Shown here piece after piece: positions 28,771 to 64,000 of a stretch of DNA of 64,000 nucleotides. Every line of letters starts with the position of its first letter. Position 1 is the first letter of the stretch. Below the pieces are notes generated by a model. It saw only the letters and a list, made by a program, of their open reading frames with translations, was not told the origin of the DNA and searched no databases. The stretch is from Owenia fusiformis. Its lineage: Eukaryota; Annelida; Polychaeta; Sabellida; Oweniidae. The stretch lies in assembly GCA_903813345.2 (NCBI GenBank), contig CAIIXF020000003.1, positions 30,395,248 to 30,459,247 of the forward strand, given 5' to 3'. The translations under genes and the position numbers were made by a program.

Positions 28771-28829
28771 CTTACACTGTCGGAATCTGACTCCTTAATG
28801 ACGATCTCTCTTTAAATTGCTAATATTTA

Positions 28830-30128: not shown

Positions 30129-30179
30129 TTTTGATCAAGTGCTTCATAAGCCAGGTCTTCCCCGACGATGTTGGTCCGG
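30129..30179 (-). pseudogene. ATPase exon start with Walker A
   Basis: On the minus strand, after a pyrimidine-rich acceptor (TGTATTTTCAG), the translation reads GPTSSGKTWLMKHLI, the nucleotide-binding P-loop. It continues into a different frame from 28830-30128, so there is a one-nucleotide break between Walker A and the rest. Confidence 0.75.
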
Positions 30180-35385: not shown

Positions 35386-35828
35386 GTTCTAAGGTTTTGC
35401 CACAAATCAGTTGAAGAATCAGTTCAAGATTTGGATGTTCAAGAATCAAGATGGACAACCTACGAAAACATATACCATTTACAAGCAAAGGTTCCAGCCA
35501 ATCAGAGAGCAGATCAGTTTTCCATGTGACTACAGATACTTTTTCGGTGATGAAAAACTGTGGAGATGTCATATCAAAATACATTGAGATGTTAAACCAA
35601 TTCTGCAGTGCTGGTTCACAGCTTGCCAAAACATTTTCTGATGTCTTTCAAAATACTCAATTCTCCAAGTCTGCTGGCCAGTTCTTGGATGTGATGTCAC
35701 AGATTGAAATGGCGACAGGTCATACAACAGTCGAGGAAAAGACAAACATTTTTCAGGTGCTTGAGGAGTTGGTGCTAAGTGTAGATAAGGATCCTAGTCA
35801 GAGTATACACTCAGAAGACAGCTTGCAA
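35386..35828 (+). CDS. Exon 1 (coding from 35451)
   Basis: Possible acceptor TTTGCTTTAATAG ends at 35385, so an untranslated exon may precede. An in-frame TGA precedes the ATG at 35451. Encodes 126 residues ending 'SIHSEDSLQ'; donor GTAAGG at 35829, phase 0. Confidence 0.7.
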
Positions 35829-38800
35829 GTAAGGATACACGTTTATCATTATCATGTTTTCAAACAAAAACGGTCACTTCATTCATAATTCAGTTACCTG
35901 TACCTAAACAAAAAATTTTTGATGTTTATTCCCCCAAATTCCATTGTGAACTTAATGTAAAGTTTAAATGCAGCCTAATTTAGAATACAACTGCAACATG
36001 TATATGCATGACTTGAAATGCCATTTGAAAGTTGACTAAACCTTTGAAATATTGGCTTTTGGCCATCCACACTCGTTACCTCCTCCCCCTAGTTATATTC
36101 GAGACCCAGGATTTGAACATGATTGCTAATCTTATAACTCATTGTTTGTGTTCCAGAGTATAAGGAGTTGCTTTAGTGCAATAGTTCAGCTCCATTGCCA
36201 GTTCATAGCGACAAGTGCAGAAATGTTGACATCTTTTTCAAACAAGAATACTGAGATTACTTGTGCATCATTAACTAAAGATGCCAAACCATCAATGAAG
36301 GATATAAGGTAACCTTTAATGCTTAATGTATCTTATAATAATTGTCCATATCAAAACATTTAGTGCTATTTATTATGTTACCACCAGTACTCGTGACTTT
36401 TTTGTAGCGGTGTTTGTTGGTTGGCATTCGGTGTTCAGCATTGCAGGTTTTGCATGTTGATGCCTTGTTTTAAAACTGAAGTGAGCTGTACCCCGCTCTT
36501 AAAGCTGGGGTATGAATTATTATCTATGTAGTAAGAAATCTGGTCTTTATCGATTTAAACATCTCTATTTTCCCATTACTTTGTTTTCCAGGTCTAATCA
36601 ACACTTCTCAAAGGTAATACACCAAGAGGACACCTTCTCCACTTATAATAAAAAAGACCCCTTGATGAACAAAAAAGTTGAAACAGTTAAAGTGAAAAAG
36701 GGAAATAGTTCATTTTATGTTGATCTTATTGATCTCAATGATGAAGCTGGTACTTCAAAAGATCAACTTAAGACTGATGAAACTAAACTGAAGGCTCATG
36801 CACTTGAACTTGATGCTGGCACAACTGGATTTAAAGATGGTGCTACCCCTGACCCATGTGCTAACCCACCACTTATCAACATACAAGGCCCAGGTACAGA
36901 ATTGATTGTAAACACTGTTGTTTATTGTAAGTTCTAGAACCAGTTTGTAATAATTGTACTCTATGTAGTATTCTATGTTAGTCAATTGTTAATAATTGTA
37001 TTCCATGTTGTCGACTCATTTTATAATAATTGCACTTTATACTCTTTTTTTGTAGAGGCAGTTATCAGTGCTGAGGCTGAGATGGTGTCTCAAGATGAGC
37101 TCGATAATGTAATTGATTTCCTTTCTAAGTGCCATAAACCCCCACCCTGTATGCAGTCTATACCAGAGGATGATGTGCCATATACAAACCACCATTTTTC
37201 AGGTATATTTCAGCACTGAGGCTTTGTGGGCTAGATCATACATACATTGCAGTGATCTCAATCCCATTAAAGCAAGTGGGCGCATCACCCGCCTGAGATT
37301 TTGAAAATAAGCTTGCACCCACCTGAAAATCCATTTGCACCCACTTGAAAATAAGAAAAATCTTGAAAAATTTTGACCAATTTTGGTCTGAATTGTGAAA
37401 ATGAGAATTTTGCACCCTCCTGAGAAAAAATCCTGGGGAGATCACTGCATTTTACCGTTTTTCTCTCTAATGAGCGCACAGTGTATTTCCAAATTGAAAT
37501 TAAAAGGGTAAGACAATTGAGAAATTCCAATAACTGCTCATAAAAAATTAAGAAAAAATATCGCTGATGATAACTTTTTTTTAGTTGTTATCACTAAGGT
37601 TTACATATTCTACAGCTCTGTATTTCTTGGCTAAACTAATGCATCAAACTTTGTGTTTTCTTGAGACCATATGCACTCATTGGAATTGAACAATTATTAG
37701 AGAGAATACTGTAGTTTGCGATATTGAGGTTGATGACTAGTTGAAATTTTAATTGTTCCTTCATTTATTCTTGCTACATAACATAATAATCTTCTATTTG
37801 GTACTTTTACCTGTCATATTTACAATTTAAGAGATGCCTAATGTCATCAATTTGTAATTTTCAAAGTAGGTGCATCACATTGAATATGGAAACAAGAATG
37901 TCACTGTCATAATACGGCTATACCTGATATACCATTTGATCTGTTGTTAGGTAACGAAGGAGTTGATGACATGATATCACAACAAGCCGATGTTCCAATT
38001 ACGCATAGGAGGTCATCTAGGTGAGTTAATAAAAAATCCAAACATGACTGTATTCACCTTTTATAAACTACATGTATGAACAAAGTCAATATTTCAACTG
38101 GTATTTATTCCTCAACAAAATACCTGGTCTGTTATGACATGAACAAAGTCAATATTTCAACTGGTATTTATTCCTCAACAAAATACCTGGTCTGTTTTGA
38201 CTGTTTCGTTCAGTGCTAAACGCTAAAACAGTAGTAGTGAATGAAGTGACGATTTGGCCAACTTTTGGTGATTTTTTATGTCACAACCAAAAGTGGTGAC
38301 ATATTGATATGGTTTCCATTTTTTGTGACGGCAGTTGGTTGGTTGGTTGGCGTCCGGTGTCTGTAACAAATTCTAAAAACTTCCAATAACTTAACAAATA
38401 CTGTTGAGACTGACTTCAATGTTTTTCAAAATCATCTATAATATCTCAGAAGTTCAAATCTGACTTTAGATTCGAGATTTGACCTTCAATGACCTTCTTA
38501 AGGTCAAAAAAGTTTTTTTTCAACTTGTTTCAAATTGACCAAAATTTTTTTCACAATCATCTATCTACAAGATCTCAGAAATTTAAATCTTATTTTTAGA
38601 TTTAAGACTTTACCTTCACTGAGCTTCTCAAGGTAAAAGGTCAAAAAGGTCTTTTTTCAACTTACATCAAATTTTTTTTCATAATCATCTACAAGTTCTC
38701 GGAAGTTCAAATCTGACTAAGATTGAACTCATGATATTGTGAACAACTAGGTGGTGACATTTTTTCATGTTTATGCCTTGTTATGTCATGTTTGAATTGT

Positions 38801-41800
38801 AATATAGACCTAAGATTAGTTATTTTGTCGATAAATACATACTTTCCATACATGTTTTTCTTAAATACAGCAGCCATTGATATTACATGCAAAAGTACAA
38901 AACCATATCTTAATGATTTTCTATTGATAAATGTCAGGTGGACACAGTGGCGTAGCCAGGATTTGGTGACCGGGGGTTCTATTTTTATGTTATTCACAAA
39001 TCCCCCCCCCCTTCATTAGGGTTCCTCAAATAATGCAATTTGTACAATTACACCCCCCCCCCCTCCAAAAGTTTGGCAATCCTAACTAACCCATTGGGTT
39101 ATGTATTAAAGCACCTAACTTTGAATTCTTATTTGTAAAGAAAAAAACTATTTTGGGAGGGGAAATATAATTAATTTTAATACCTTCATTAAGTTAAGTA
39201 GACAATTGAATTTTATTTAACAAAAATGATGTCTTTATTTACGTTAAGCAGGCTTCATCAAGAAACCTCTCCCATTGAAATAACAAAGGACGTGAAAATG
39301 ATTTTCAAAAATGACCTTGTAGCTTTGTAACTTTAATGTTCACTAAGTAAAATAAACAGGCAATGTGCAAAAAAGTCAGACAACTTATAATTAATTTTCT
39401 GCATCAAAATATATTTTGGTGAATCTTTTAGTGAATACATATCCTGAAATCTGATTTGCCCCGAATCCACCATTATTTCGTCTGATTTCTGGAAGACTCT
39501 GGAGCATGATATTTGTTTCCAAGGAATATTAACTATGTCGCACAATTTATTCTTTAACTAAGCCACTTCATCTAGGACAAAATAAATCACCTCATGCAAT
39601 GGCTTATCATTATTTTTCAGGAATTTTGTTGGAAACCAGTTCGGATCAAATGCAAGGTTATTGAAATTGGCGCAAACACCTACTCCGAAAGATCGTTCTT
39701 CTACGATAACTTTTCACACCGTTTACACGAAGGCTTTTTAAACTATCTGGGATAGTCGTATTGCTGATGAAATATATATTATTCAAACAAGTGGGTTTCG
39801 GTTATGCTTTGTTTTAAAAAGTTAAAAATATTTCTATGGACGTCCCCGGAGCTCAGTGGTAAGTCCCCCGGAGCAGATCAACTGCAATTGATAATAAAAA
39901 CGTTTTGATGGATATAAATCATATATAAATACAAGCGACTGTTCGAATATAAAACTTATTTTACGGTTTGATAACTAATTAGGCCTTCATTATTTGAACA
40001 TTAATACCATATGATTTTTGAATGTTTTTTTATTATGTAATTTATTCGCTAAACATATTATGACATTAAAGGCAGAATCTGAGGTAACAAAATTACAAGC
40101 AACATGTAAAATTGACCTTCCAATCCATTCCTTGCAATATCAAATACAATATCTCCCAAAAGATTCACAATATGTTATAAATTGGTGAAGTTATTAATGA
40201 TTCAAAGTGCAAAAATGTGTGAAAATGTTTAAATTCTCCCAAATAATAAGAATGGTAATAAGAATGCTAACCATTCTTATAGAAAAATAATACATTATTG
40301 TAAAAATCTTCAGTTTTCCTGGAATAAAGTGTGCACTTTTGTGATTTTTAGAAAATAGACATGAAAAGGAACGACATGAGCCAGAAATATTCTAAAATTG
40401 TAACAATTTTTTGTTTAGCCTGCTCGCTATATCTGATTCTCTCTTTAACATGAAAATGGAGAGCAAGTAAACTGGAACGATAAAAATTTGAATTCCATAC
40501 AATCTCTTAGATGTGTGGAGTGTATCTGAAAAAACAAAATCATTTTTTGCAATGATTTTTTGAAAAGTGATGGGTAAATAAATACTGAACAAATGAAAGA
40601 ATGGATAAATTGAACAAATGCTTGTGTTTATAAATGATATACGCTTTTAAATAATTCATTTCACAACGTTTTGAATTATTTAACGTGGAGACTTGCAAGC
40701 CTCAGGGACGTTCCAAGAAATATTTTAAATTTTGATTAAAATAAAACAAAACAAAGATGTACACATTTGAAAGAACATGTGTTTCATCAATATTACCACT
40801 ATTCCAGATATTTATTCGTCAATGTTGTAAAAATCATTCGGAGTATGTGCATGGTTTTCAATAACTTTCAATGACTTCTTATTGGACCAGAACAAAATTC
40901 CTACAAAGGACTGATTTAGCCATTGCCAAAGATGGGTTATTTTGTCCGAGAAGAAGCAGCTTTAAGTTAATTGTGCGAAATTATTGTTATTTCTAAATGT
41001 AAAATCCCATGCTCTGGGGTCTTCCCAAAATTAAATCTCACCACGTGCTCAAGGTTGCCAAACGTTTTGAGGGAAGTGTAACTTCACTATGACATATTTG
41101 TAACAAAATAAGGCTCTTGTGTTCACCATAACAAATATCAATTCATTTACTGCTCATATATGTAGTTTTCAAATAGCAAAGTGATTTAATGTTTCTGGTT
41201 ATATGCATTTTTTTCGCAAAATTATATTTTGGGAAATCCTACCTGGGGGTTTGTTCGAACCCACCGAACCCCGCTGCCTACGGCTATTGGACAGATGCAT
41301 CCAAAGGTCTATATTTATATATATTCGATTTTTGAGATATTTGACAGTAACCAATAATTGAAATAGATAGGCTGAGAGTATTAAAGCTTTTGAAAATCCC
41401 TTACAATTTCTTAATGTCCATGGTAAATCCAGTGCTTCAAAATATCTGAAGAAAGAATATTCTGATTCTAAACCTAATTTATTCGGATATTTAAGCCTTG
41501 TAGAGGAGATACTGTCCCACAATGAGAGGGGTCCAGTTTGGCCAAACCCCATCAAACAACGATCTAGTTTTCCCAGAGATGCATCCGTGCAACAGGACTA
41601 TTTTCCCAGTGAACCTTCAACTGCTGACTTAGAGTTCTCACATTATCTTTCCTCTATTCAGGTATGTACACATCCATGTACCAAACCTTTGCATGACACA
41701 TGGGAGCTTTCCTCTATTCAGGTATGTACACATCCATGTACCAAACCTTTGCATGACACATGGGAGCTTTCCTCTATTCAGGTATGTACACATACATGTA

Positions 41801-44800
41801 CCAAACCATTGCATGACACATGGGAGCTTTCCTCTATTCAGGTATGTACACATACATGTACCAAACCATTGCATGACACATGGGAGCTTTCCTCTATTCA
41901 GGTATGTACACATACATGTACCAAAGCATTGCATGACACATGGGAGCTTTCCTCTATTCAGGTATGTACACATCCATGTACCAAACCTTTGCATGACACA
42001 TGGGAGCTTTCCTCTATTCAGGTATGTACACATACATGTACCAAACCATTGCATGACACATGGGAGCTTTCCTCTATTTAGGTGTGTACACATCCATGTA
42101 CCAAACCTTTGCATGACACATGGGAGCTTTCCTCTATTCAGGTATGTACACATCCATGTACCAAACCTTTGCATGACACATGGGAGCTTTCCTCTATTCA
42201 GGTATGTACACATACATGTACCAAACCTTTGCATGACACATGGGAGCTTTCCTCTATTCAGGTATGTACACATACATGTACCAAACCTTTGCATGACACA
42301 TGGGAGCTTTCCTCTATTCAGGTATGTACTGTACTCATACATGTGCCAAACATTTGCATGACACATGGGAGCTTTCCTCTATTCAGGTATGTACACATAC
42401 ATGTACCAAACCTTTGCATGACACATGGGAGCTTTCCTCTATTCAGGTATGTACACATACATGTACCAAACCTTTGCATGACACATGGGAGCTTTCCTCT
42501 ATTCAGGTATGTACATACATACATACATGTACCAAACCATTGCATGACACATGGGAGCTTTCCTCTATTCAGGTATGTACATACATGTACCAAACCTTTG
42601 CATGGCATATGGGAGCTTTCCTCTATTCAGGTATGTACACATACATGTACCAAACCTTTGCATGACACATAGGAGCTTTCCTCTATTCAGGTATGTACAC
42701 ATACATGTACCAAACATTTGCATGACACATGGGAGCTTTCCTCTATTCAGGTATGTACACATACATGTACCAAACATTTGCATGACACATGAGAGCTTTC
42801 CTCTATTCAGGTATGTACACATACATGTACCAAACCTTTGCATGACACATGGGAGCTTTCCTCTATTCAGGTATGTACACATACATGTACCAAACCTTTC
42901 CATGACACATAGGAGCTTTCCTCTATTCAGGTATGTATATACATACATGTGCCAAACCTTTGCATGACACATGGGAGCTTTCCTCTATTCAGGTATGTAT
43001 ATACATACATGTGCCAAACCATTGCATGACACATGGGAGCTTTCCTCTATTCAGGTATGTACACACACATGTACCAAACCATTGCATGACACATGGGAGC
43101 TTTCCTCTATTCAGGTATGTACACATACATGTACCAAACCATTGCATGACACATGGGAGCTTTCCTCTATTCAGGTATGTACATACATACATACATGTAC
43201 CAAACCTTTGCATGACACATGGGAGCTTTCCTCTATTCAGGTATGTATATACATACATGTGCCAAACCATTGCATGACACATGGGAGCTTTCCTCTATTC
43301 AGGTATGTACACATACATGTACCAAACCTTTGCATGACACATGGGAGCTTTCCTCTATTCAGGTATGTATATACATACATGTGCCAAACCTTTGCATGAC
43401 ACATGGGAGCTTTCCTCTATTCAGGTATGTACACACACATGTACCAAACATTTGCATGACACATGGGAGCTTTCCTCTATTCAGGTATGTACACATACAT
43501 GTACCAAACCTTTGCATGACACATGGGAGCTTTCCTCTATTCAGGTATGTACATACATACATACATGTACCAAACCATTGCATGACACATGGGAGCTTTC
43601 CTCTATTCAGGTATGTACACATACATGTACCAAACCTTTGCATGACACATGGGAGCTTTCCTCTATTCAGGTATGTATATACATACATGTACCAAACCAT
43701 TGCATGACACATGGGAGCTTTCCTCTATTCAGGTATGTACACATACATGTACCAAACCTTTGCATGACACATGGGAGGTTTCTCTATTCAGGTATGTACA
43801 CATACATGTACCAAACCATTGCATGACACATGGGAGCTTTCCTCTATTCAGGTATGTACACATACATGTACCAAACCTTTGCATGACACATGGGAGCTTT
43901 CCTCTATTCAGGTATGGACACATACATGTACCAAACCTTTGCATGACACATGGGAGCTTTCCTCTATTCAGGTATGTACACATACATGTACCAAACCATT
44001 GCATGACACATGGGAGCTTTCCTCTATTCAGGTATGTACACATGCATGTACCAAACCTTTGCATGACACATGGGAGCTTTCCTCTATTCAGGTATGTACA
44101 TATACATGTACCAAACCATTGCATGACACATGGGAGCTTTCCTCTATTCAGGTATGTACACATGCATGTACCAAACCTTTGCATGACACATGGGAGCTTT
44201 CCTCTATTCAGGTATGTACACATACATGTACCAAACCTTTGCATGACACATGGGAGCTTTCCTCTATTCAGGTATGGACACATACATGTACCAAACATTT
44301 GCATGACACATGGGAGCTTTCCTCTATTCATGTATGTACACATACATGTACCAAACATTTGCATGACACATGGGAGCTTTCCTCTATTCAGGTATGGACA
44401 CATACATGTACCAAACCTTTGCATGACACATGGGAGCTTTCCTCTATTCAGGTATGTACACATACATGTACCAAACCATTGCATGACACATGGGAGCTTT
44501 CCTCTATTCAGGTATGTACACATGCATGTACCAAACCTTTGCATGACACATGGGAGCTTTCCTCTATTCAGGTATGTACACATACATGTACCAAACCATT
44601 GCATGACACATGGGAGCTTTCCTCTATTCAGGTATGTACACATACATGTACCAAACCTTTGCATGACACATGGGAGCTTTCCTCTATTCAGGTATGGACA
44701 CATACATGTACCAAACCTTTGCATGACACATGGGAGCTTTCCTCTATTCAGGTATGTACACATACATGTACCAAACCATTGCATGACACATGGGAGCTTT

Positions 44801-47800
44801 CCTCTATTCAGGTATGTACACATGCATGTACCAAACCTTTGCATGACACACGGGAGCTTTCCTCTATTCAGGTATGTACACATACATGTACCAAACCTTT
44901 GCATGACACACGGGAGCTTTCCTCTATTCAGGTATGTACACATACATGTAACAAACCTTTGCATGACACATGGGAGCTTTCCTCTATTCAGGTATGTACA
45001 CATACATGTACCAAACCTTTGCATGACACATGGGAGCTTTCCTCTATTCAGGTATGTACACATGCATGTACCAAACCTTTGCATGACACATGGGAGCTTT
45101 CCTCTATTCAGGTATGTACACATACATGTAACAAACCTTTGCATGACACATGGGAGCTTTCCTCTATTCAGGTATGTACACATACATGTACCAAACCTTT
45201 GCATGACACATGGGAGCTTTCCTCTATTCAGGTATGTACACATGCATGTACCAAACCTTTGCATGACACATGGGAGCTTTCCTCTATTCAGGTATGTACA
45301 CATACATGTACCAAACCATTGCATGACACATGGGAGCTTTCCTCTATTCAGGTATGTACACATACATGTACCAAACCTTTGCATGACACATGGGAGCTTT
45401 CCTCTATTCAGGTATGTACACATACATGTACCAAACCATTGCATGACACATGGGAGCTTTCCTCTATTCAGGTATGTACACATACATGTACCAAACCTTT
45501 GCATGACACATGGGAGCTTTCCTCTATTCAGGTATGTACACATATATGTACCAAACCTTTGCATGACACATGGGAGCTTTCCTCTATTCAGGTATGTACA
45601 CATACATGTACCAAACATTTGCATGACACATGGGAGCTTTCCTCTATTCAGGTATGTACACATACATGTAACAAACCTTTGCATGACACATGGGAGCTTT
45701 CCTCTATTCAGGTATGTACACATACATGTACCAAACCTTTGCATGACACATGGGAGCTTTCTTCTATTCAGGTATGTACACATGCATGTACCAAACCTTT
45801 GCATGACACATGGGAGCTTTCCTCTATTCAGGTATGTACACATACATGTACCAAACCTTTGCATGACACATGGGAGCTTTCCTCTATTCAGGTATGTACA
45901 CATACATGTACCAAACCATTGCATGACACATGGGAGCTTTCCTCTATTCAGGTATGTACACATACATGTACCAAACCTTTGCATGACACATGGGAGCTTT
46001 CCTCTATTCAGGTATGTACACATACATGTACCAAACCATTGCATGACACATGGGAGCTTTCCTCTATTCAGGTATGTACACATACATGTACCAAACCTTT
46101 GAATGACACATGGGAGCTTTCCTCTATTCAGGTATGTACACATCCATGTACCAAACCTTTGCATGACACATGGGAGCTTTCCTCTATTCAGGTATGTACA
46201 CATACATGTACCAAACCTTTGCATGACACATGGGAGCTTTCCTCTATTCAGGTATGTATATACATACATGTGCCAAACCTTTGCATGACACATGGGAGCT
46301 TTCCTCTATTCAGGTATGTACACATACATGTACCAAACCTTTGCATGACACATGGGAGCTTTCCTCTATTCAGGTATGTATATACATACATGTGCCAAAC
46401 CTTTACATGACACATGGGAGCTTTCCTCTATTCAGGTATGTACACATACATGTACCAAACCTTTGCATGACACATGGGAGCTTTCCTCTATTCAGGTATG
46501 TACACATACATGTACCAAACCTTTGCATGACACATGGGAGCTTTCCTCTATTCAGGTATGTATATACATACATGTGCCAAACCTTTGCATGACACATGGG
46601 AGCTTTCCTCTATTCAGGTATGTATATACATACATGTGCCAAACCTTTGCATGACACATGGGAGCTTTCCTCTATTCAGGTATGTATATACATACATGTG
46701 CCAAACCATTGCATGACACATGGGAGCTTTCCTCTATTCAGGTATGTACACATACATGTACCAAACCATTGCATGACACATGGGAGCTTTCCTCTATTCA
46801 GGTATGTACACATACATGTACCAAACATTTGCATGACACATGGGAGCTTTCCTCTATTCAGGTATGTACACATACATGTACCAAACCATTGCATGACACA
46901 TGGGAGCTTTCCTCTATTCAGGTATGTACAAATGCATGTACCAAACCTTTGCATTACACATGGGAGCTTTCCTCTATTCAGGTATGTACACATACATGTA
47001 CCAAACCTTTGCATGACACATGGGAGCTTTCCTCTATTCAGGTATGTACACTTACATGTACCAAACCTTTGCATGACACATTGGAGCTTTCCTCTATTCA
47101 GGTATGTACACATCCATGTACCAAACCTTTGCATGACACATGGGAGCTTTCCTCTATTCAGGTATGTACTGTACTCATACATGTGCCAAACATTTGCATG
47201 ACACATGGGAGCTTTCCTCTATTCAGGTATGTACACATACATGTACCAAACCTTTGCATGACACATGGGAGCTTTCCTCTATTCAGGTATGTACACATAT
47301 ATGTACCAAACCATTACATGACACATGGGAGCTTTCCTCTATTCAGGTATGTACACATGCATGTACCAAACATTTGCATGACACATGGGAGCTTTCCTCT
47401 ATTCAGGTATGTACACATACATGTAACAAACCTTTGCATGACACATGGGAGCTTTCCTCTATTCAGGTATGTACACATACATGTACCAAACATTTGCATG
47501 ACACATGGGAGCTTTCCTCTATTCAGGTATGTTATAATACATGTACCAAATCTTTGCATGACACATGGGAGCTTTCCTCTATTCAGGTATGTACACATAC
47601 ATGTACCAAACCTTTGCATGACACATGGGAGCTTTCCTCTATTCAGGTATGTACACATACATGTGCCAAACCTTTGCATGACACATGGGAGCTTTCCTCT
47701 ATTCAGGTATGTACACATACATGTACCAAACCTTTGCATGACACATGGGAGCTTTCCTCTATTCAGGTATGTACACATACATGTACCAAACCTTTGCATG

Positions 47801-50800
47801 ACACATGGGAGCTTTCCTCTATTCAGGTATGTACACATACATGTGCCAAACCTTTGCATGACACATGGGAGCTTTCCTCTATTCAGGTATGTACACATAC
47901 ATGTACCAAACCATTGCATGACACATGGGAGCTTTCCTCTATTCAGGTATGTACACATACATGTACCAAACCTTTGCATGACACATGGGAGCTTTCCTCT
48001 ATTCAGGTATGTACACATACATGTGCCAAACCTTTGCATGACACATGGGAGCTTTCCTCTATTCAGGTATGTACACATACATGTACCAAACCTTTGCATG
48101 ACACATGGGAGCTTTCCTCTATTCAGGTATGTACACATATATGTACCAAACCTTTGCATGACACATGGGAGCTTTCCTCTATTCAGGTATGTACACATAC
48201 ATGTACCAAACATTTGCATGACACATGGGAGCTTTCCTCAATTCAGGTATGTACACATACATGTAACAAACCTTTGCATGACACATGGGAGCTTTCCTCT
48301 ATTCAGGTATGTACACATACATGTACCAAACATTTGCATGACACATGGGAGCTTTCCTCTATTCAGGTATGTACACATACATGTACCAAACCATTGCATG
48401 ACACATGGGAGCTTTCCTCTATTCAGGTATGTACACATCCATGTACCAAACCTTTGCATGACACATGGGAGCTTTCCTCTATTCAGGTATGTACACATAC
48501 ATGTACCAAACCTTTGCATGACACATGGGAGCTTTCCTCTATTCAGGTATGTACATACATGTACCAAACCTTTGCATGACACATGGGAGCTTTCCTCTAT
48601 TCAGGTATGTACTCATCCATGTACCAAACCTTTGCATGACACATGGGAGCTTTCCTCTATTCAGGTATGTACACATCCATGTACCAAACCTTTGCATGAC
48701 ACATGGGAGCTTTCCTCTATTCAGGTATGTACACATACATGTACCAAACCATTGCATGACACATGGGAGCTTTCCTCTATTCAGGTATGTACACATACAT
48801 GTACCAAACCTTTGCATGACACATGGGAGCTTTCCTCTATTCAGGTATGTACACATACATGTACCAAACCTTTGCATGACACATGGGAGCTTTCCTCTAT
48901 TCAGGTATGTACACATACATGTACCAAACCTTTGCATGACACATGGGAGCTTTCCTCTATTCAGGTATGTACATACATGTACCAAACCTTTGCATGACAC
49001 ATGGGAGCTTTCCTCTATTCAGGTATGTACTCATCCATGTACCAAACCTTTGCATGACACATGGGAGCTTTCCTCTATTCAGGTATGTACACATGCATGT
49101 ACCAAACCTTTGCATGACACATGGGAGCTTTCCTCTATTCAGGTATGTACACATACATGTACCAAACCATTACATGACACATGGGAGCTTTCCTCTATTC
49201 AGGTATGTACACATACATGTACCAAACCTTTGCATGACACATGGGAGCTTTCCTCTATTCAGGTATGTACACATACATGTACCAAACCTTTGCATGACAC
49301 ATGGGAGCTTTCCTCTATTCAGGTATGTACAGTACACATATATGTACCAAACCATTACATGACACATGGGAGCTTTCCTCTATTCAGGTATGTACACATA
49401 CATGTACCAAACCTTTGCATGACACATGGGAGCTTTCCTCTATTCAGGTATGTACACATATATGTACCAAACCTTTGCATGACACATGGGAGCTTTCCTC
49501 TATTCAGGTATGTACACATACATGTACCAAACCATTGCGTGACACATGGGAGCTTTCCTCTATTCAGGTATGTACACATACATGTACCAAACCTTTGCAT
49601 GACACATGGGAGCTTTCCTCTATTCAGGTATGTACACATACATGTACCAAACCTTTGCATGGCACATGGGAGCTTTCCTCTATTCAGGTATGTACACATA
49701 CATGTACCAAACCATTACATGACACATGGGAGCTTTCCTCTATTCAGGTATGTACACATACATGTACCAAACCTTTGCATGGCACATGGGAGCTTTCCTC
49801 TATTCAGGTATGTACACATACATGTACCAAACCTTTGCATGACACATGGGAGCTTTCCTCTATTCAGGTATGTACACATACATGTACCAAACCATTGCGT
49901 GACACATGGGAGCTTTCCTCTATTCAGGTATGTACACATACATGTACCAAACCTTTGCATGGCACATGGGAGCTTTCCTCTATTCAGGTATGTACACATA
50001 CATGTACCAAACCTTTGCATGACACATGCTAAAGTGTGATGTAAATTACCCTAACATTTGTGTACATAAAATGTAAAACATGTACTATGGATATCATCCT
50101 CAGTTTTTACTACTCACATCCCCATTTGAAGATAAATTAACAGCACAGATTTAATTGCAATCTTCCTTCATCTTGTAATTGTTAGCCTCTCCCTTTTGAA
50201 AGCTCTGCTGTGATAGGCTAATATGCTATGGGGTCAACATCAAAGTCCTGGCATCAAATTCAAATGTTATGAAAAGTTTAGAAGACCTTGAAATACCAGT
50301 AAATATGTGAAATAATTAAAACTAGACATAAAATATGGAAAGTAACAACCCAGGGTTGTTACAGATTCAATATATCAATTCTCTTCTTGGAAGAACTGAG
50401 GCATGCTTAATACATTTTGAATTTTAACAATCATTCCATGATAGTTCCCCAATATAAATACATCTTTCCAGAGGGAAATAGTCATTCACTATAATGATAG
50501 TCTGTACTTGTAAATGAACATGAGTCTTAGGGAGGTGACAATATTTGCTGTTTATTCCCAAACTTTTTTTTGTAATACATGTAATACATTTTTGTTCATA
50601 TCTACATTTAGGCAATGAGTAGGGGCAGTCCAGGGGGCACTTGTGTAGGGAATGGACAGTACCAGCCCTGGCCACAGAGTAGCAGGTACAACCAGTGGCA
50701 AACCCAGCAACCATTGGGGTAGGTTACAACAGATGCTCCATTTGGTATATTTCACCTGTTATAGAATAAATCCGAAAAGATTGTCCACAACTTTACTTTG

Positions 50801-55326: not shown

Positions 55327-57006
55327 TTACGCACGTTTATTTCTCTTCAGAGAATTTCTCATATGATCTTTACCGGGAATGCCAGCTAATGCTTCCTCAG
55401 GCTTCATAGGGACAAAAGCTGAAAATCGTCTTCGAACCCTACCCGATGAAGAAAACTGGTCCTGTATATCTTGAGAACGAAAGCGGATTTTGGGAAGGGA
55501 ACCTTGCATAGGTAAAGCATCTCGGGCCAGCGGCCTCATCAGTGAACTACGATGGTGGTCACCTCCCAAAGTTCCAGCTAACGGCCCACCATATCTACTT
55601 TTGCCGCTCGCGCGTGGGGATGACGGCATTGACAATGACGTCGATTTGCCATTCTTCTTTGTTCCGGAGCTATAACCCTCCATCTGGCGATTGTAAAGAT
55701 CCGTTAAACGTCTCTCTATTTTACCAGAGATTGATCGACCAGCTTGTAGATTTGAAGGTCTTGGTAGTTTTTGTGGTTTTCGTCCAGAGGAGGTTCTGGT
55801 ATCGTAATCTGAGCCAGGTACACCAGCTAAAGCCTGACTTCTTTTTGTTGAGATAAGACCATGTGAGTAATCATCATCACCTGGCAGACCAGCTAAAGGT
55901 TCTATTCCATCAGGTTTGGTTCTAATGGAACTTGCAGCTGAACGTGCTTTAGATTGCATTGGTAATGGATCACTTGGTTCCCTTATCTGTGTTACCTCCA
56001 TGTCGTTAGTACCACGTGCTAGCCCAGAAGAATGTGAAGATGACTGCATGGGTAATGGATCTTTTGTTTGTCTTTTCAGTACAGGGTCTATGTGGTCACC
56101 ACCAGGTGTATTTGACAGAGGTTGCTTTATGAATTTCATTAAAGCGTTGAAGCTGTGATCATCCCTAAGTTGTCCACCAAGTGGATCGGCATGATGAATT
56201 TGACTTGCCTGCATTGGATTCGACCCTCGAGAACCTGGTAGTGGATCGGCGTGATGCATTTGCCTTGCCTGCATTGGATTCGACCCTGGAGAACCTGGCA
56301 GTGGATCGGCGTGATGCATTTGCCTTGCCTGCATTGGATTCGACCCTGGAGAACCTGGCAGTGGATCTGTTTTCCCTCCTGATTGAGTATACCCCTGCAG
56401 CTGTTGTGTGTCACGTGGCTCCTGCATTGTGCGTTTCCATGGAGATCGTCTGGGACCTTCAGGCAGAGGATCAGATTCCAAGTTCGACACTGTTTTATAT
56501 GGTTTGCCAGACATTGCCTTAAGTGTGGACTGTAGTGGTAAAGCATCAGTTGTACGCATTGTTTCTGCCTCTGGAACGTTCCTATCTACGACCTGACTGT
56601 AGTAATCACTGCCTGGTACTCCTGCCAACGCTCCCGTGTTCTTAAGCCGTCCGATATGCTTCACAGAACGCTGGTGATTCGATTCGGCTCTCTTCATTTC
56701 TCTTTTAAAGACGATATCTTGAAGCCGACCTGCATTGCTCAGCGGATGAATGGGCGATCCAAGTGGAGAGGCGTTGATTTCTAGGTCACCTGCATTTTTC
56801 AACATGCGTTTAATTGCAGCTTTGTCTGTTGTGAAATGAATAAATGGAATGTATCCCCACCACGAGTTCATCCAATCAAACAACCTTTCCTTTGCCGGAC
56901 TTGCAGTTGGGAGCAAGAATCTCTTTGCAGTATTCAAAGCCCTCGCGCCATATGCCGAAATCTTCATTCGGTGTAGTATTAAATGAACGTCAATAAACTC
57001 CTGGGT
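55327..57006 (-). CDS. Last exon: ferritin helices D/E and a long repetitive tail
   Basis: Acceptor TTTTTAATTTTAG at 57007. The first residues, 'TQEFIDVHLILHRMKISAYG', match the ferritin 'CDFIEtHyL.eQVkaikelG' helix (Gln141 place is Arg). 'AKERLFDWMNSW' follows where helix E ('EYLFDKHTLG') is expected. The remaining 450-odd residues are basic and Pro/Gly/Ser-rich. They hold about 14 degenerate modules of the type [D/E/A]-x-L-[P/A]-G-x-P-G-x-[D/N], three of which are 20-residue near-identical copies. No membrane segment. Stop TAA at 55327-55329. Confidence 0.8.
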   Translation of the reverse strand, partial: TQEFIDVHLILHRMKISAYGARALNTAKRFLLPTASPAKERLFDWMNSWWGYIPFIHFTTDKAAIKRMLKNAGDLEINASPLGSPIHPLSNAGRLQDIVFKREMKRAESNHQRSVKHIGRLKNTGALAGVPGSDYYSQVVDRNVPEAETMRTTDALPLQSTLKAMSGKPYKTVSNLESDPLPEGPRRSPWKRTMQEPRDTQQLQGYTQSGGKTDPLPGSPGSNPMQARQMHHADPLPGSPGSNPMQARQMHHADPLPGSRGSNPMQASQIHHADPLGGQLRDDHSFNALMKFIKQPLSNTPGGDHIDPVLKRQTKDPLPMQSSSHSSGLARGTNDMEVTQIREPSDPLPMQSKARSAASSIRTKPDGIEPLAGLPGDDDYSHGLISTKRSQALAGVPGSDYDTRTSSGRKPQKLPRPSNLQAGRSISGKIERRLTDLYNRQMEGYSSGTKKNGKSTSLSMPSSPRASGKSRYGGPLAGTLGGDHHRSSLMRPLARDALPMQGSLPKIRFRSQDIQDQFSSSGRVRRRFSAFVPMKPEEALAGIPGKDHMRNSLKRNKRA

Positions 57007-60000
57007 CTAAAATTAAAAATGTTACATCTATCAAGGCATGTCAAATGAGTATGAAAGACATTTGAAACGTTTTTGATATGACAAGTAATGTAATGTTGTT
57101 GTTTTTTATCTCAACACAGATTTTGAGTTGATTATTGATTATTTTATTTGTCTATCAATATATCTGTATTCAATGTACTTATTTTTGGGCAATCATAATT
57201 AAAAGTGAGACTATCGAACATAACCATATTCAAATCATATGGATTGTTTTTGATATATCACAATTTTGGTACACTTTGGATTCTTGAATTGTGAGGATGT
57301 AGGGAAGATTATTCAAGGTGAAATCAAAGAAACGTACGTTGATATCATTGTCGACCCCAGCTTGGAAGTAAAGTGAATCAAAGCATGACGAAGCCGCCTT
57401 GTTATTGTCAACGAATTTCTGCAGGGCGTCCAAAATAGTCCAGTCACAATCAACTGGAGCCTTTAAAATAGATCGTTCATATTTAATATTAATTAATATC
57501 GTTCTTTAATTGCACGTTTTAAGGTTGTCGGGGTGCGTTTTTCTGAAACTGGTTTTCCATTTAGTGTTTTTAATTTTGTTCTTGTATTTTTAGATTGTAT
57601 CGGCTGTTGTTTTTCATTGCGATTGTATTTGTATCTAAGAGTGTGTATCTTCTTGAGTCATACATTCCACAGTACATTCATTCTACCAGATATTTTCACT
57701 ATTCGATCATAGAATAGCTGATTCTCACCTATCCTGTATTTTCAGATTAAAATTATTATATCACATGTACGAAATCCCAATTGATGTCAATTTACATATT
57801 AATGGATACAACACTGTTATGTTTAATAATGTGCGATTCCAACAACCTTATGGACACACGTGTCACACACAAGTCGTCTATACTTACCGGGACTTCGCCG
57901 AATACTATACAGCCACCACTCGTTGTGATTAACTCATAAATTGTAGCCTTTGTTTGCATTTCCATTTTCCGAGCTTGCATGAAATTGAAACGTATTCCCG
58001 GCAGCTCAATGTCATCCCGGTTAAAGAAATATGCCTAATTTAAAAAAATAATAAATTATTTAATATTATTGCATTCCTGATAACTGATCTGAATATCATC
58101 CCGGTTAAAGAAATATGCCTAATGTTAAAAAATATTAAAAATTATTTTAATATTATGTGTAAAGTTGACTCAAAGTCAGCCTATATTCTTAATTATTGCG
58201 ATACATCTGTATATGTCATGCATTTGATCATGTGCTAATTGCATAACAACTGACATGATTTGGTTGACTTTTAAGCTTACAGGCTTAAAACATGCTGTAT
58301 TTTTAGTGTTTATATGAAAGGAAAATACTTACTATTGCGTGGTATTCACGCGCATGCTTATGTAGCATTAATGCACATTGTGTAGCAATGGCTTGCACTG
58401 CATCTGTGAATGTCACCTTCCTATTTGGGGATGTGTTCGGGCATGATGGTCCTAAAATGTATTATAACATTAAAATGGATCATTAATCAAAAAAGAGTGA
58501 AATTATATCCAATAAGTTACTCAATATCCTACCAGGTTATTGTATAACAGAAAACTTGCATGAAGTGTTACCTGTTGAATCTGGGCATTTACACGTTTCA
58601 CCATGATATCCAGCGTCACACGTACACGTGACAAACTTCTCAAGGTCACTGCTACAAGTACCATGTCCATTGCAAGATGCTAGAATCACAACAGAATTAT
58701 GTTGAGCATATCGTCTAGTTTTATAATCTATGTATCAATTTGATTAGTTCGAAAGGATGTTAAAATGTTTCAAAACACTTAGGGCTCAACATATAACTTA
58801 TTTTCCGAATTTAGATTATTCGAAAAATTATTTTTAAGCCCTTATACTGATCATGATGTACTAATTGAAGAACATGATTATATAATCTCACCATTACTAC
58901 AAGCACAGAATGTCCCAGAGAAACCTGCATCACATTCACAAGTATATACGAGGCCTTTAACGTCTGTACAGAAACCGTGCCCACTACATGCACCTAAAAA
59001 ATAAAATTAACGCAGGTTAGCATTTTGATGGATGTTTCAGCGGATATCTCATTTTACCAGTTCACGATCATCCAATTGTGCTCCAAAATGCATACCATCA
59101 CTTTTTCAATCATTTGTTGACTAATAACTTTCAAATATATGTATACATTGTACATAGATAGACGACACTGTGTGTCTATTTAAGATGGCATGTGCTTAAA
59201 ATACAACATATGTATTTACAATATTTTACTATAAATCGGCAACTCCACAGAGTAGCAAATCCCAACGAAAATGGTATTCATGAGTCCGTATATGCCATGA
59301 TATAATATTTTCTACTCTACCGTTGATTTGCAGACAATAAAAGACAAACATTGGAGATATCATAATTTCCCTCAATTTAAAATTTGGGTGGCCATTTAGG
59401 AAAGGCACAAATCATAAAGAAAATATTTTGATGAGAATTTTAGATTAAAAGCAAATACCCGCAATAGGCAGGCATTTTAAATATTCCCAGGCACGAATCA
59501 GAAAAACAATGCCATAATTGTAATCTACTTAAAGATCCCTTCGATTTGATTATAGCCGGGATTATAGTATATTATATTATTTTATATTATAAATAAATAT
59601 ATTAATATATATTAACTTTAATGAGATCACAAAATTATTGCAAAATCCTACAAAAGGCAGTCATTTTGAATATTTAAAGGCTCGAATTAGGAAAACTATA
59701 CAACATTTGCAATCTTTAGATTGCCTTAAAACCAAGATTAAATAATATATTGTGATCATACAAGATTTCCAACTATTCACCAATATACATCTTTCCAACA
59801 AATATAAAGAAAATACGTCCCGTAGTATTCTGGCGGACAGACGGACTGGTGGACGGAGGGCTTCATAGACAGCCCATGTTTACGTCCGACTTTGCATTAC
59901 CTCTCGAGATTCTGTCTCACTCCTAGGGGATGCTTACCTGGACGGCATCCACAATATTGGCCATAAAACGGTCTTTGGCAGTCACATACAAACTTCCCAT

Positions 60001-63000
60001 CAGGATCATCTACACACTCGCCATACTTGCATATGTCGTCTAGAACAATACGAATATATAATATGTAGAATTGTGAAAGTGAAGGCGTTCATAATGCAAT
60101 CGGTTCATGATGCATTATTTTACTCACATGGTGCGATTGTAACATATGAAAATGTATTTCATTCCATATGGCCTTTAGTTTAGTAAAGTGAAAATTAATT
60201 CAGTTTCTCCAAAACAGCTTGAAATGCTCATCAAAATTGATTATGCCTTGACAAAAGCTAAAACAGATCTCTGTAAATTATATGGTTAGAATGGTTATGC
60301 CCAATAAGCAAATCTTATGCAGAATGGACATTACAAATATACCTTGCTAGAAATTACACATCCCAAAATATTAAATATTAGCTAGATTACCGATGACATA
60401 GTTCTGAGAGAGCAATGTTTCCAATCAAAATTATGTTTCATTTATTGCTAAATAAGAGAACTTCTTAGATTTTGAAGGATATTTTGGAAATGATTGGTAT
60501 CGATATGGTGAACTTTTTGAACTCAAGTTTCTCTTAAACCAGTCATCAAAAAATTATGAAAATCTTACAATTCGTCAATTTAATGGTCATATTTTGAGTG
60601 GTAACAATATAATTTGGAAAAAATATATAAACTTTTTTCTATATTGTTTTCGAAAACACATCAGACACTTCTTTTGTTCTTGGTATCATATGTTCGGAAT
60701 GAAATGAAACATCTATCCGAACCTTATTGGAACAAAACGACACAAACACAACGTTTTTAGGTCTCTCGATATTGTAATTGTACAAAGGAAAGTTTGTTTG
60801 ATTTAAAAAAATATGTTGTTAGTGAAATAAAAGTTTTATCTTAATTTTTATCTATTTAGGGTGGTTTTGTTTTGATTTTTTGAATACTTTATGTAAAATC
60901 AACCAAAATTTCCGTTGAAGAAAATGTTGTATATGCTATTTTGTTCCAACAAGGTTCAGAAAGACATTTTATTTCATTTTCAAGAATTGGTAGAAAGGAA
61001 CAGAAAACAATTTGCACTAAAAACGAAAAATGTTAACAAAAACAGTAATAGAAAATATATTAATAATTTTTGCATTAAATTGTTGGCAATCAGTCAACAT
61101 TACATCAAGGACCGTCTTTTTTACATATGTTTTCAACAATTGGTTTAAGAGAAAAACATTGTTGAATTCAGTTCACCATAGCGATACCTATCCTTTAGCA
61201 TTAATGCATCCTATTCCTGCCCGAAACTCAGAATGTTAAATTTACCAATAGATGGCATGATTGGGCCGGCTTGGTCTATTATATTTACCAGATGGGCAGT
61301 TACAATATTGTCCAGTCAGGCCCTCCCTACACTTGCATGAGATGTCACCATCTATTGCATCAACACATTCTGCCTGATCAACTTGACAGCCATCTCTTCC
61401 ATTGACCACAACCTCACAAAGGGAAAGTATCCCTGCTGATTTCAGGGAGACCCTGAGCCAACGTCCCATAAGATGAGTTGGACACGTGATTATCTGTCCC
61501 TGCCGTCCATAGTCAACACCACCCCTCTGTCTAGCGCACAGTTTCCATGGAGTCAGCTCATTGTTTTCTATGTCGAGTGCATTTGTTGCCTCAACAACAA
61601 AATCTGTTAGAAAAATCGCTGGAAACAATTTATAACACGTGATTTAATCAAACAACCCGTCTTGCAAAACATTATTAAACAGAGTTTATTCAAGAGGGCA
61701 TAAAAATACTGGGCTAATACAAGTCAACAAATGTGGCGCATGACAAGCACATTCATTCTGAACATATAACACAATATCACCATATGTTGTAAGTAAATGC
61801 ATTATTGCAATACTTTACCGGAAGCATCAACTCTATTGTAAATAACAACACTTTTAATGGACACAGACTCTCCAAAGTCAACTATCCAATAAGGCTCTGG
61901 TTCATTATTTGTTAGCGTGCACGACCCACCAAGGACTGTACCATCGGTATTCCCATCATTTGCAAGGAAACTATCACCAAAATCTTGTGTCACATCTTTA
62001 GATGACTGAAGCGTCACTTTGTTAAGTGCGATGTTGTCTAAAACACAAAGATCTCTTTTCACTTACTAAATAATATTTTGTTTAAAAGGAAATAATATTT
62101 TCATTCAACTTTAGCAGTTTAATTTGACCCCGACCTGAATTTGACGAATAACATTCTCGTATTTATCATTTCAATTTACAGTGCAATTAGAAGAGATTCA
62201 TTTGACATACTATATATGATATGATTTTACAGGTAGGCAAAGTAAGATCACACGTACATGTAACTATAAACTACTTATTTATTAATATGTCAATACCTTG
62301 CCAACATTACGTTGAAAATAATAGAAAAAATATATCATTACTTTCTTTTTCAGCTAGAACCTGTACTTCACATAGTACCAGGGGCATCGTTAACGTCTGC
62401 AGTTTTATTCTAATCCAGCGGCCTTCCACAATGTTTTGACAAACATCTATTTGCATTAAACTATTTGGAAAATCGAGTCCATCGGTGTCTTCAACACATT
62501 GTGTCCACGTCTGGAAGTCTGGGCTAACTTCTATTATATAGTTAGACATACCGGTACTTGTACCTGTATTAATGTGAATTTCTGTATTAATTATCGTGAA
62601 CTAATGAGCACTACCAATCTTAGTGATTGAGTACCAAGAGTGACAACACCAGTGATAGATATGTACAGTATGTACATATGCCAAAGGGAAATGACCAAAT
62701 ATTGTCACAGAACACAGCAAGAAAAAGAAAACATATCAGGGTACACCAGTTATTCGAAAACCATAACCATGCTTACTATCAATAAACAGAATGACTGTGT
62801 CTATGAAGTGAATCTCATTGAGATCCACAGTCCATTTTACAGATTCCAATTCGGAAGGTGGATCTGATGTCTTTGAACAGGTTGAAATGTCACCGTCAGC
62901 AGCATTGTCGGATACTTCATTAGTAGTCAAACTAGTCTGGAATGTTTCTTTATTCTTCGCAACGTTTTCTAAAATAAATGTCTTAATTAACAGTTTACTC

Positions 63001-64000
63001 AAGTTTAATGCCAACTGTATTCAAGTTTTAAGGCGACTACTCTCCTTCGTGTCCTTAGAACGTTTCGAATATTTCTTTTTACTTGTTAATTTATTGCATT
63101 CGCATTGATGTTTCTTATTTAATTTTCTGGGTTTTATCTAATCGTGATTCAATACATATGGATAGCTCATGTCCAGTAACTTCTCTCACCGACAACAGAA
63201 CCTTCTATCTGAACTTCACACAAGGCAAGGACCCCGTCTTTCCGAATTCGTAGCCATCTTGCAACAGTCCTCTGATCACAGAATTCCTGAATAACGTAAC
63301 CATCAGCCATGGATGCGGCTGGGCCAATGCGCTCTTTGCACAATGTCCACTGAGTTGAGGATGTATCAGGTGGATCCAATAACCTAACGGTACCTTCTAT
63401 CGAGTAATTGGACAACCGTTCAGCTGTAAATAAATGAAGTACAAGGAACTTAAAACACGGACCTCAAGGTTACATATGGCGCCATCACCAAACTGAAATT
63501 GCAACGACTGAAGAGCACTCGAAGGTATTCGCACATCATTTCAAAAGAATGAGCTTCCCTCCGCTTTCTCCAGGTTTTTGTTGTATTGTAGTACCATTTT
63601 ATGAACCCTCAAGACCTACTGTGGTTATTGAGAGGATTGCTTGGATACTTTACTGCTGTCATCCCCATACATAACCATGACATTAACGTCAGAAGGTGCA
63701 CAGGCTTAGCCTAGCAATACTTTGCTTGTATTCGCGAATGCAACTAACGCCTGTCGGCTTCCGAATTATTCTACTATTTTATGGGCAACTCATTTATATA
63801 TGAATTGTACCTACCACTATTCTATTCATGTTTAAATGAGTTGGTCATAAAATAGTTGGTTAATCCGGCAGTCGACGGGCCTTAGTTGCATTCGCGAATA
63901 CAAGCTTTAAAATCTATTTTTATCTAATATACATTCATGGACTTACGGTTTGTGTCGCTGTTGTACAACACAACACTTTCTACGTCATAGGTAAGACCTA
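55327..64000 (-). CDS. Discoidin-EGF-ferritin-like fusion protein (5' end outside the window)
   Basis: Fourteen exons on the minus strand, all joined in phase. From the N-terminal side: a discoidin half (63947-64000) and its partner (63190-63423); two more discoidin domains, each split into two exons (62777-62968 with 62342-62563; 61819-62037 with 61289-61618); four EGF-like modules; a ferritin-like domain over four exons; and a repetitive tail of about 450 residues ending at 55327. The discoidin and EGF modules imply a secreted or cell-surface protein that binds carbohydrate or matrix; ferritin domains normally store iron. All discoidin/EGF introns are phase 1 and the ferritin introns are phase 0, which fits exon shuffling onto a ferritin gene. 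The signal peptide, if any, lies beyond the right edge. I know of no named gene with this order. Confidence 0.8.
56180..56365 (-). repeat. Coding 60-bp tandem repeat, three copies
   Basis: Three near-identical 60-bp units encoding 'DPLPGSPGSNPMQARQMHHA' (one with GSRGS and ASQIH). This is the least diverged part of the tail repeats and so the youngest. Confidence 0.9.
57338..57460 (-). CDS. Exon: ferritin-like domain, helix C
   Basis: 123 nt (41 codons), phase 0/0, donor GTACGT. Encodes 'APVDCDWTILDALQKFVDNN' and 'SCFDSLYFQAGVDNDIN'. Corresponds to the ferritin segment 'kP..DeW....AM..AL.LEK'. The Glu107 position is Asn. Confidence 0.83.
57888..58034 (-). CDS. Exon: ferritin-like domain, helix B
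   Basis: 147 nt (49 codons), phase 0/0, donor GTAAGT, acceptor TTTTAAATTAG. Encodes 'AYFFNRDDIELPGIRFNFMQ' and, after a helix, 'TTSGGCIVFGEVP'. This matches ferritin's 'YYF.RDDVALpGF..FF' and 'RGGRI' positions. At the usual EE..H iron ligands (61, 62, 65) only one Glu is left. I recall exon 2 of vertebrate ferritin heavy chain as also 147 nt with the same boundaries. Confidence 0.88.
58035..58130 (-). repeat. Duplicated 3' splice site of the helix-B exon
   Basis: TCATCCCGGTTAAAGAAATA, then TGCCTAAT, at about 58012-58039 recurs at 58096-58123. The intron therefore contains a second copy of the acceptor and of the first 25 or so exon bases, 84 bp upstream in transcript sense. Confidence 0.85.
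58333..58451 (-). CDS. Exon: ferritin-like domain, helix A
   Basis: 119 nt, enters phase 1, leaves phase 0; acceptor ATACATTTTAG, donor GTAAGT. Encodes a short linker (CPNTSPNRK) and 'FTDAVQAIATQCALMLHKHA' then REYHAI. The place of ferritin Glu27 (usually LEL) is Met or Leu here; a Tyr stands at the Tyr34 place. Confidence 0.78.
58572..58679 (-). CDS. Exon: EGF-like module 4
   Basis: 108 nt, phase 1/1; donor GTAACA. Encodes 'SCNGHGTCSSDLEKFVTCTC' then DAGYHGETCKCPDSTG. It is the last module before the ferritin part. Confidence 0.82.
58892..58993 (-). CDS. Exon: EGF-like module 3
   Basis: 102 nt, phase 1/1; acceptor TTATTTTTTAG, donor GTGAGA. Encodes 'ACSGHGFCTDVKGLVYTCEC' then DAGFSGTFCAC. 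Confidence 0.82.
58994..59937 (-). other. Intron, nothing recognised
   Basis: About 940 bp, AT-rich, with a locally repeated block (GGCAGGCATTTTAAATATTC at about 59468 and GGCAGTCATTTTGAATATTT at about 59656). No exon. Confidence 0.45.
59938..60039 (-). CDS. Exon: EGF-like module 2
   Basis: 102 nt, phase 1/1, donor GTAAGC; the acceptor ATTGTTCTAG is usable. Encodes 'DICKYGECVDDPDGKFVCDC' then QRPFYGQYCGC, six cysteines with EGF spacing. Confidence 0.78.
60040..61288 (-). repeat. Intron with dispersed inverted-repeat element, copy 2 (60459-61225)
   Basis: 60459-61225 is the reverse-orientation relative of 4310-5057 (GATTGGTATCGATATGGTGA, TCGATATTGTAATTGTACAA, AGGTCTCTCGATATTGTAAT). The ORFs at 60915-61239 belong to the repeat. 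Confidence 0.65.
61289..61618 (-). CDS. Exon: second half of the third discoidin domain plus EGF-like module 1
   Basis: 330 nt, phase 1/1; acceptor AATTGTTTCCAG, donor GTAAAT. After 'MGRWLRVSLKSAGILSLCEV' it encodes a Cys-rich module, 'DGCQVDQAECVDAIDGDISC' then KCREGLTGQYC, typical EGF spacing. The exon joins the two domain types directly. Confidence 0.82.
61819..62037 (-). CDS. Exon: first half of the third discoidin-like domain
   Basis: 219 nt, phase 1/1; acceptor TTGTGTTTTAG, donor GTAAAG. Contains 'NIALNKVTLQSSKD', 'FLANDGNTDGTV' and 'YWIVDFGESVSIKSVVIYNR', the full N-terminal signature of an F5/8C or FTP domain. Confidence 0.85.
62342..62563 (-). CDS. Exon: second half of the second discoidin-like domain
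   Basis: 222 nt, phase 1/1; acceptor ATTAATACAG, donor GTAATG (weak but phase-consistent). Contains 'SNYIIEVSPDFQTWTQC' and 'EGRWIRIKLQTLTMPLVLCE'. Confidence 0.78.
62777..62968 (-). CDS. Exon: first half of the second discoidin-like domain
   Basis: Acceptor TTATTTTAG, donor GTAAGC; 192 nt, phase 1/1. Opens 'ENVAKNKETFQTS' (the NVA.gK...qSS start of FTP-type domains) and continues 'NAADGDISTCSKT' and 'KWTVDLNEIHFIDTVILF'. Confidence 0.8.
63190..63423 (-). CDS. Exon: second half of the first discoidin-like domain
   Basis: Acceptor TTATTTACAG, donor GTGAGA; 234 nt, phase 1 in and out. Contains 'LSNYSIEGTVRL' and 'ARWLRIRKDGVLALCEVQI', the conserved C-terminal strand (RWLRI....LxLCEV) of this fold. 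Confidence 0.8.
63424..63946 (-). repeat. Intron with compact fold-back element (63727-63902)
   Basis: TTGTATTCGCGAATGCAACT at the left and AGTTGCATTCGCGAATACAA at the right, plus ATTTTATGGGCAACTCATTT and its near-inverse inside; about 175 bp, non-coding. It relates to the material at 3690-4120. The rest of the intron is unassigned. Confidence 0.75.
63947..64000 (-). CDS. Exon: first half of a discoidin-like domain (cut by window edge)
   Basis: Encodes 'YDVESVVLYNSDTN', the beta-strand that in F5/8C and fucolectin-type domains reads V..V.lYNR.D. Donor GTAAGT; leaves in phase 1. Confidence 0.65.

Follow-up and report, generated by a model that had tools for sequence, protein, structure and literature searches.

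A very probable fusion of lectin-like and EGF modules to a ferritin subunit with an altered ferroxidase site in the annelid Owenia fusiformis

Results

We reconstructed the exons on the minus strand of a 64-kb stretch of the Owenia fusiformis genome (the window, C3:30395248-30459247; all other coordinates are window positions and minus strand unless stated otherwise). Thirteen exons with consistent phases were joined into a single open product, with AG at 12 of 12 acceptors and GT at 12 of 12 donors, confirming the phase-consistent minus-strand exon set proposed by a first-pass annotation of this DNA. The resulting model comprises 1209 residues, is cut at its 5'-most exon by the window end and terminates with a stop codon at 55327-55329. 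Pfam analysis of the model yielded F5_F8_type_C_2 and F5_F8_type_C modules, four EGF stretches (PF00008), equal in number to the EGF-like modules claimed earlier, and a Ferritin domain (PF00210). The mollusc origin implied at that stage has to be given up as the source is an annelid.

The same exons are found in a public NCBI entry, P0002 (1116 residues, 'unnamed protein product, partial [Owenia fusiformis]'), which carries five F5/8C modules according to Pfam, the last three being located wholly or partly inside the window. Module 3 is encoded by a first-half exon of which the 3' part is present (63947-64000, cut by the window end and continuing in the upstream stretch L005; donor GTAAGT) and by a second-half exon at 63190-63423. 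Module 4 is split between 62777-62968 (Pfam) and 62342-62563, and module 5 between 61819-62037 and 61289-61618, with the latter exon also encoding EGF module 1 (Pfam). EGF modules 2, 3 and 4 each occupy a single phase 1-1 exon detected by Pfam (59938-60039, 58892-58993 and 58572-58679). After a phase-1 intron of 120 nt at the fusion joint (58452-58571), the ferritin part is spread over four exons: the N-terminal arm and helix A (58333-58451, recognized by Pfam and solved ferritins), helix B and the BC loop (57888-58034, preceded by a phase-0 intron found at the same alignment column in two other Owenia ferritin genes, L010 and L007), helix C (57338-57460) and helices D and E (55327-57006, helices reaching to about 56875), the last exon continuing into a long tail.

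To place the F5/8C modules, one of the five, module 5, was compared with solved structures. Its best match was FBP32, an F-type lectin (9.1e-14), followed by a fucolectin-related protein and a lectin. Six solved sequences were matched, four of them named FBP32, lectin or fucolectin-related protein and two named platelet aggregation factor Sm-hPAF. At least three discoidin-type domains had been claimed, which holds for the F5/8C modules as Pfam defines them, while the module compared is closest to F-type lectins. The fucose motif of F-type lectins has been given as HX24RXDX4(R/K) (PMC5712786). No instance was present in the 1644-residue Owenia composite when His spacings of 20-28 were allowed with the Asp form only, and the single RXDX4(R/K) of the composite, in module 2, lacks the His. 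Four of the five modules retain the cation motif, a sixth match in the EGF1 region having been excluded from this count. Sugar binding, if any, would thus probably differ from classical fucose binding. The composite contains neither RGD nor KGD, and its highest 19-residue hydropathy is 1.33, on which basis a transmembrane segment was taken to be absent. Of the carbohydrate- or matrix-binding role suggested earlier, binding to a matrix or surface is plausible, whereas the fucose motif is not kept.

The gene extends beyond the window. The first Met of P0002 lies inside a C-type lectin domain (6.1e-8, for a pair of exons spliced by eye). The stretches covered stop short of the gene's 5' end and yielded no signal peptide. 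The C-type lectin domain is followed by an EGF-like module (by eye), a trefoil (6.6e-7) and then the first lectin-like module of P0002. In the 39.7 kb covered upstream, Pfam identified additional F5/8C exons on the same strand and PAN in at least one exon, tblastn revealed further lectin-like halves, and EGF- and trefoil-like exons were recognized by eye. Together, L005, L006, L011 and L012 (C3:30459000-30498690, minus strand) form about 39.7 kb of F5/8C, PAN, C-type lectin, EGF-like and trefoil-like exons, which represent either one giant modular gene or a tandem array or row of genes. Searching these four stretches for a second ferritin or tail gave no match (tblastn, E 0.01), and an equivalent search of the 64-kb window returned no further ferritin exons. 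Elsewhere in the window, an 8.4-kb array of about 139 copies of a 60-bp repeat is located at 41647-50028, with long open frames on both strands because the unit is a multiple of three. A 373-residue open frame that encodes an integrase core and a chromo domain (27673-28794, minus strand) lies beside a 434-residue open frame (28830-30134, minus strand), and the pair resembles a Polinton-type element. An open frame on the plus strand (35415-35888) matches DUF4745 (3.7e-15).

The junction between EGF module 4 and the helix-A exon had been predicted beforehand from the sequence, and P0002 is spliced at exactly this position. No in-frame ATG exists between EGF module 4 and the middle of helix A. 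Reading through past EGF module 4 leads to a stop soon after the exon, and in-frame stops are also found just upstream of the helix-A exon, whose phase-1 acceptor fits the donors of the EGF exons. The published annotation of Owenia fusiformis combined RNA-seq, Augustus and PASA (PMC9977687), and P0002 presumably derives from it. We consider the lectin-EGF-ferritin fusion very likely to be real.

P0002 departs from our model in its ferritin part. It omits the helix-C exon (57460-57338), and Pfam does not detect Ferritin in it at E 0.01. Its sequence stops at window position 56791, before the tail and adjoining GGTGACC, a sequence that could serve as a candidate splice donor. Pyrimidines make up 50% of the acceptor tract of the helix-C exon, towards the lower limit of the 45-75% range across the 12 acceptors. 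The omission reflects alternative splicing, an exon missed by the gene model or a decaying domain; if the exon is skipped, the four-helix bundle of the P0002 isoform would be broken.

As proposed in the first-pass annotation, the four ferritin exons were searched with the Ferritin profile. The domain alone scored 27.9 bits (E 2.5e-6) and thus above the PF00210 cut-off of 24.5, and within the whole 1209-residue model it scored 23.8 bits, just under this cut-off. Among solved-structure sequences, 183 matches were obtained at E 0.001 or better (best E 1.5e-9), and the best 60 of the 183 are all ferritins or ferritin fusions. The alignment with the solved human heavy chain is near full length (query 6-174 to chain 5-172) and spans the helix E region. 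Homology over four exons therefore agrees with the four-helix domain described earlier, and the description has to be widened to a subunit complete from helix A to helix E. With the helix-C exon removed, the best ferritin score was 26.6 bits (E 5.5e-5), compared with 41.4 bits when it was included. On its own, this 41-residue exon found no ferritin among solved structures, its one match being unrelated (E 0.91). Relative to classical ferritin, helix A carries a one-residue insertion.

The seven ferroxidase ligands were taken from the list given for a mussel ferritin (PMC3144951), relative to which 2 of 7 are kept and 5 of 7 changed in the Owenia domain (E25>M, Y32>Y, E59>M, E60>E, H63>T, E105>N and Q139>R). 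With five of the ligands replaced, iron oxidation by the ferritin part is unlikely, which weakens the iron-handling half of the earlier proposal of iron handling at surfaces and leaves its surface half plausible. D129 and E132, which we take to be three-fold channel residues, are replaced by E and D, respectively, so that both positions are still acidic. Hydropathy values of the domain and of a solved ferritin are correlated across the aligned positions (r 0.475, reached by 0 of 5000 permutations) and also across the non-identical ones (r 0.305, reached by 13 of 5000 permutations). The ferritin fold may thus persist without the enzyme site.

The C-terminal tail had been put at 450 residues. 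Counted from GDLE it comprises 487, and about 515 when counted from the end of the human heavy chain alignment. It is encoded at 55330-56790 (minus strand), Cys-free, basic (70 Lys+Arg vs 45 Asp+Glu) and rich in Ser, Pro and Gly, and it contains 13 matches to a DPLPMQ / ALAGVPGSDY-like motif as well as three 60-nt repeats. The open frame of the last exon extends over 559 codons, and none of 500 base shuffles gave a run longer than 190. Since P0002 ends before the tail, its assignment rests on this open frame and the repeated motif. The last exon including the tail matched no solved structure at E 1, and the tail is probably disordered.

A Ferritin profile search of the 498-Mb assembly gave four exon matches in three other loci; the ferritin exons of the window are absent from this list because scoring proceeds exon by exon. 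After splicing, the matches correspond to three separate ferritin genes, namely L007, L008 with L009 (on C4) and L010, the last having five exons and a signal-like leader as judged by eye. The introns of the window's ferritin part fall at alignment columns 75, 124 and 166, all in phase 0. L010 shares all three columns and phases and L007 the two present there. In L008 with L009, 0 of 3 introns are shared and two introns are found at other positions. Further, the helix-A exon lies behind a phase-1 intron in the window gene and likewise in L010, where this intron follows the leader exon, and the helix-A exons measure 119 nt here and 122 nt in L010. By sequence, the window's ferritin part is nearest to L008 (28.0% identity, 42.9 bits), followed by a human heavy chain (23.6%, 33.0 bits), L007 (20.3%, 24.2 bits) and L010 (19.2%, 22.2 bits).

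The shared intron columns and phases, together with the phase-1 intron before helix A, point to an intron-bearing ferritin gene that was captured at the DNA level with its old introns, through the phase used by the EGF exons here. Descent from L010, suggested by its introns and leader, is weakened by the greater sequence similarity of L008, although L008 has neither the shared introns nor the leader. As L008 is nearest by sequence and L010 lowest, we do not claim a secreted ferritin as the donor.

Among the open-licence papers listed by literature searches, none described a family with the lectin-EGF-ferritin order. Protein searches based on shared exact words returned only P0002 with this order among 551 candidates and none among a further 33; a search over 7234 candidates returned P0002, P0003 (Micromonospora) and P0004, the last two having no ferritin in their listed domains. 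The earlier statement that no family of this architecture is known thus stands for the papers listed and the proteins searched, beyond the Owenia protein itself. For other species, absence of the order is weakly indicated, as these searches need shared exact words.

Discussion

The exon structure, the homology, the identical introns, the ligand loss and the annotated joint describe one Owenia fusiformis gene that would encode, in order, C-type-lectin, EGF-like and trefoil modules, five F5/8C modules resembling F-type lectins, four EGF modules, a ferritin subunit and a basic tail. From this we infer a secreted protein and tentatively favor, at somewhat less than even chances, an extracellular mosaic protein in which a ferroxidase-dead ferritin serves as a module for structure or clustering. 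Such a protein would have arisen when a ferritin gene was captured together with its introns and joined to an EGF exon via a phase-1 intron, as in exon shuffling. With three separate ferritin genes in the genome, the fused copy was free to change, and loss of most of the ferroxidase site would have left it a structural or clustering role in place of iron oxidation. If folded, the ferritin module might use its former subunit contacts to dimerise or to build larger oligomers and thereby gather several lectin-EGF arms on a surface or in a secreted matrix. A tail of about 515 residues per subunit would presumably not fit inside a normal 24-subunit cage, as estimated from cage dimensions. P0002 speaks against a working fold: it lacks the helix-C exon, is not recognized as Ferritin by Pfam and stops short of the tail.

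The lack of the helix-C exon and of a Pfam Ferritin match in P0002, the only public model found, forms the core of the main rival explanation, a decaying passenger in which the fusion is real and the ferritin part is a non-folding relic that skips its helix-C exon and does no more than space the tail from the modules in front. The low pyrimidine content of the helix-C acceptor tract and the 19-28% identity to the worm's own ferritins fit such decay. All four ferritin exons are nevertheless open and in phase, the helix-C exon contributes 15 bits of ferritin signal, and hydropathy is kept even where residues differ. We regard a relic as unlikely, at about one chance in four.

An improbable alternative is a surface ferritin that still handles iron by entering mixed cages with canonical secreted subunits, for example L010, with the partners providing the ferroxidase sites and the fused subunits anchoring the cages to the matrix. 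Light chains elsewhere lack a ferroxidase centre, yet co-assemble, and both the signal-like leader of L010 and the acidic residues kept at the presumed three-fold channel would suit such a partnership, whereas the low identity to L010 and the bulky tail argue against it. We regard as quite improbable a natural lectin-displaying ferritin particle, in which the dead subunit would sit in its own or a mixed cage with EGF and lectin-like arms outside and helix-C skipping as an assembly switch. Very improbable is a gene-model artefact, with a lectin-EGF gene stopping after EGF module 4 and a separate ferritin-like gene having its own start: most helminth-specific fusions across the 20 species of one study were likely annotation artefacts (PMC12964723), read-through from EGF module 4 soon reaches a stop and a ferritin start exon may sit in one of the longer introns, but the joint intron spans a mere 120 nt, the helix-A exon has no in-frame start before it, is preceded by in-frame stops and fits the EGF donors in phase, and P0002 contains the joint.

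Ferritin is the textbook single-domain cage protein that stores iron. The structural-module reading suggests that a cage protein found new use as an extracellular building block, and the gene would illustrate how a ferritin fold can be captured with its introns by phase-1 exon shuffling and then lose the enzyme site. If the ferritin part still oligomerises, the protein would be a natural counterpart of engineered ferritin display, and if not, a clear example of a cage protein that became a spacer; both outcomes are testable and the Owenia genome is public. Should the lectin-displaying particle prove true, an animal would have evolved the design that engineers use in fusing proteins to ferritin.

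Among known systems, F-type lectins such as FBP32 and fucolectin-related protein resemble the Owenia protein in the module 5 match, the tandem arrangement of modules and the cation motif of four modules. They differ in the fucose motif, which the composite lacks, and in their partners, the word ferritin occurring 0 times in the main text of the F-type lectin review (PMC5712786). L010 has the same phase-1 intron before the helix-A exon and the same three inner introns, whereas it keeps all seven ligand letters, is only distantly similar and has five exons that encode neither lectin nor EGF modules. Mosaic proteins such as MFG-E8 and EDIL3 likewise combine EGF and F5/8C (discoidin) modules in a secreted protein; they are not known to carry a ferritin and differ in module order and number, and the RGD or KGD missing from the composite is a further difference. 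Unlike classical animal ferritin (PF00210; heavy and light chains), the Owenia ferritin part is not a stand-alone protein, being flanked by N-terminal modules and a C-terminal tail, and it carries the helix A insertion and the changed ligands. With these classical chains it shares homology over almost the entire subunit, including the helix E region, and, via L010, three intron positions with their phases.
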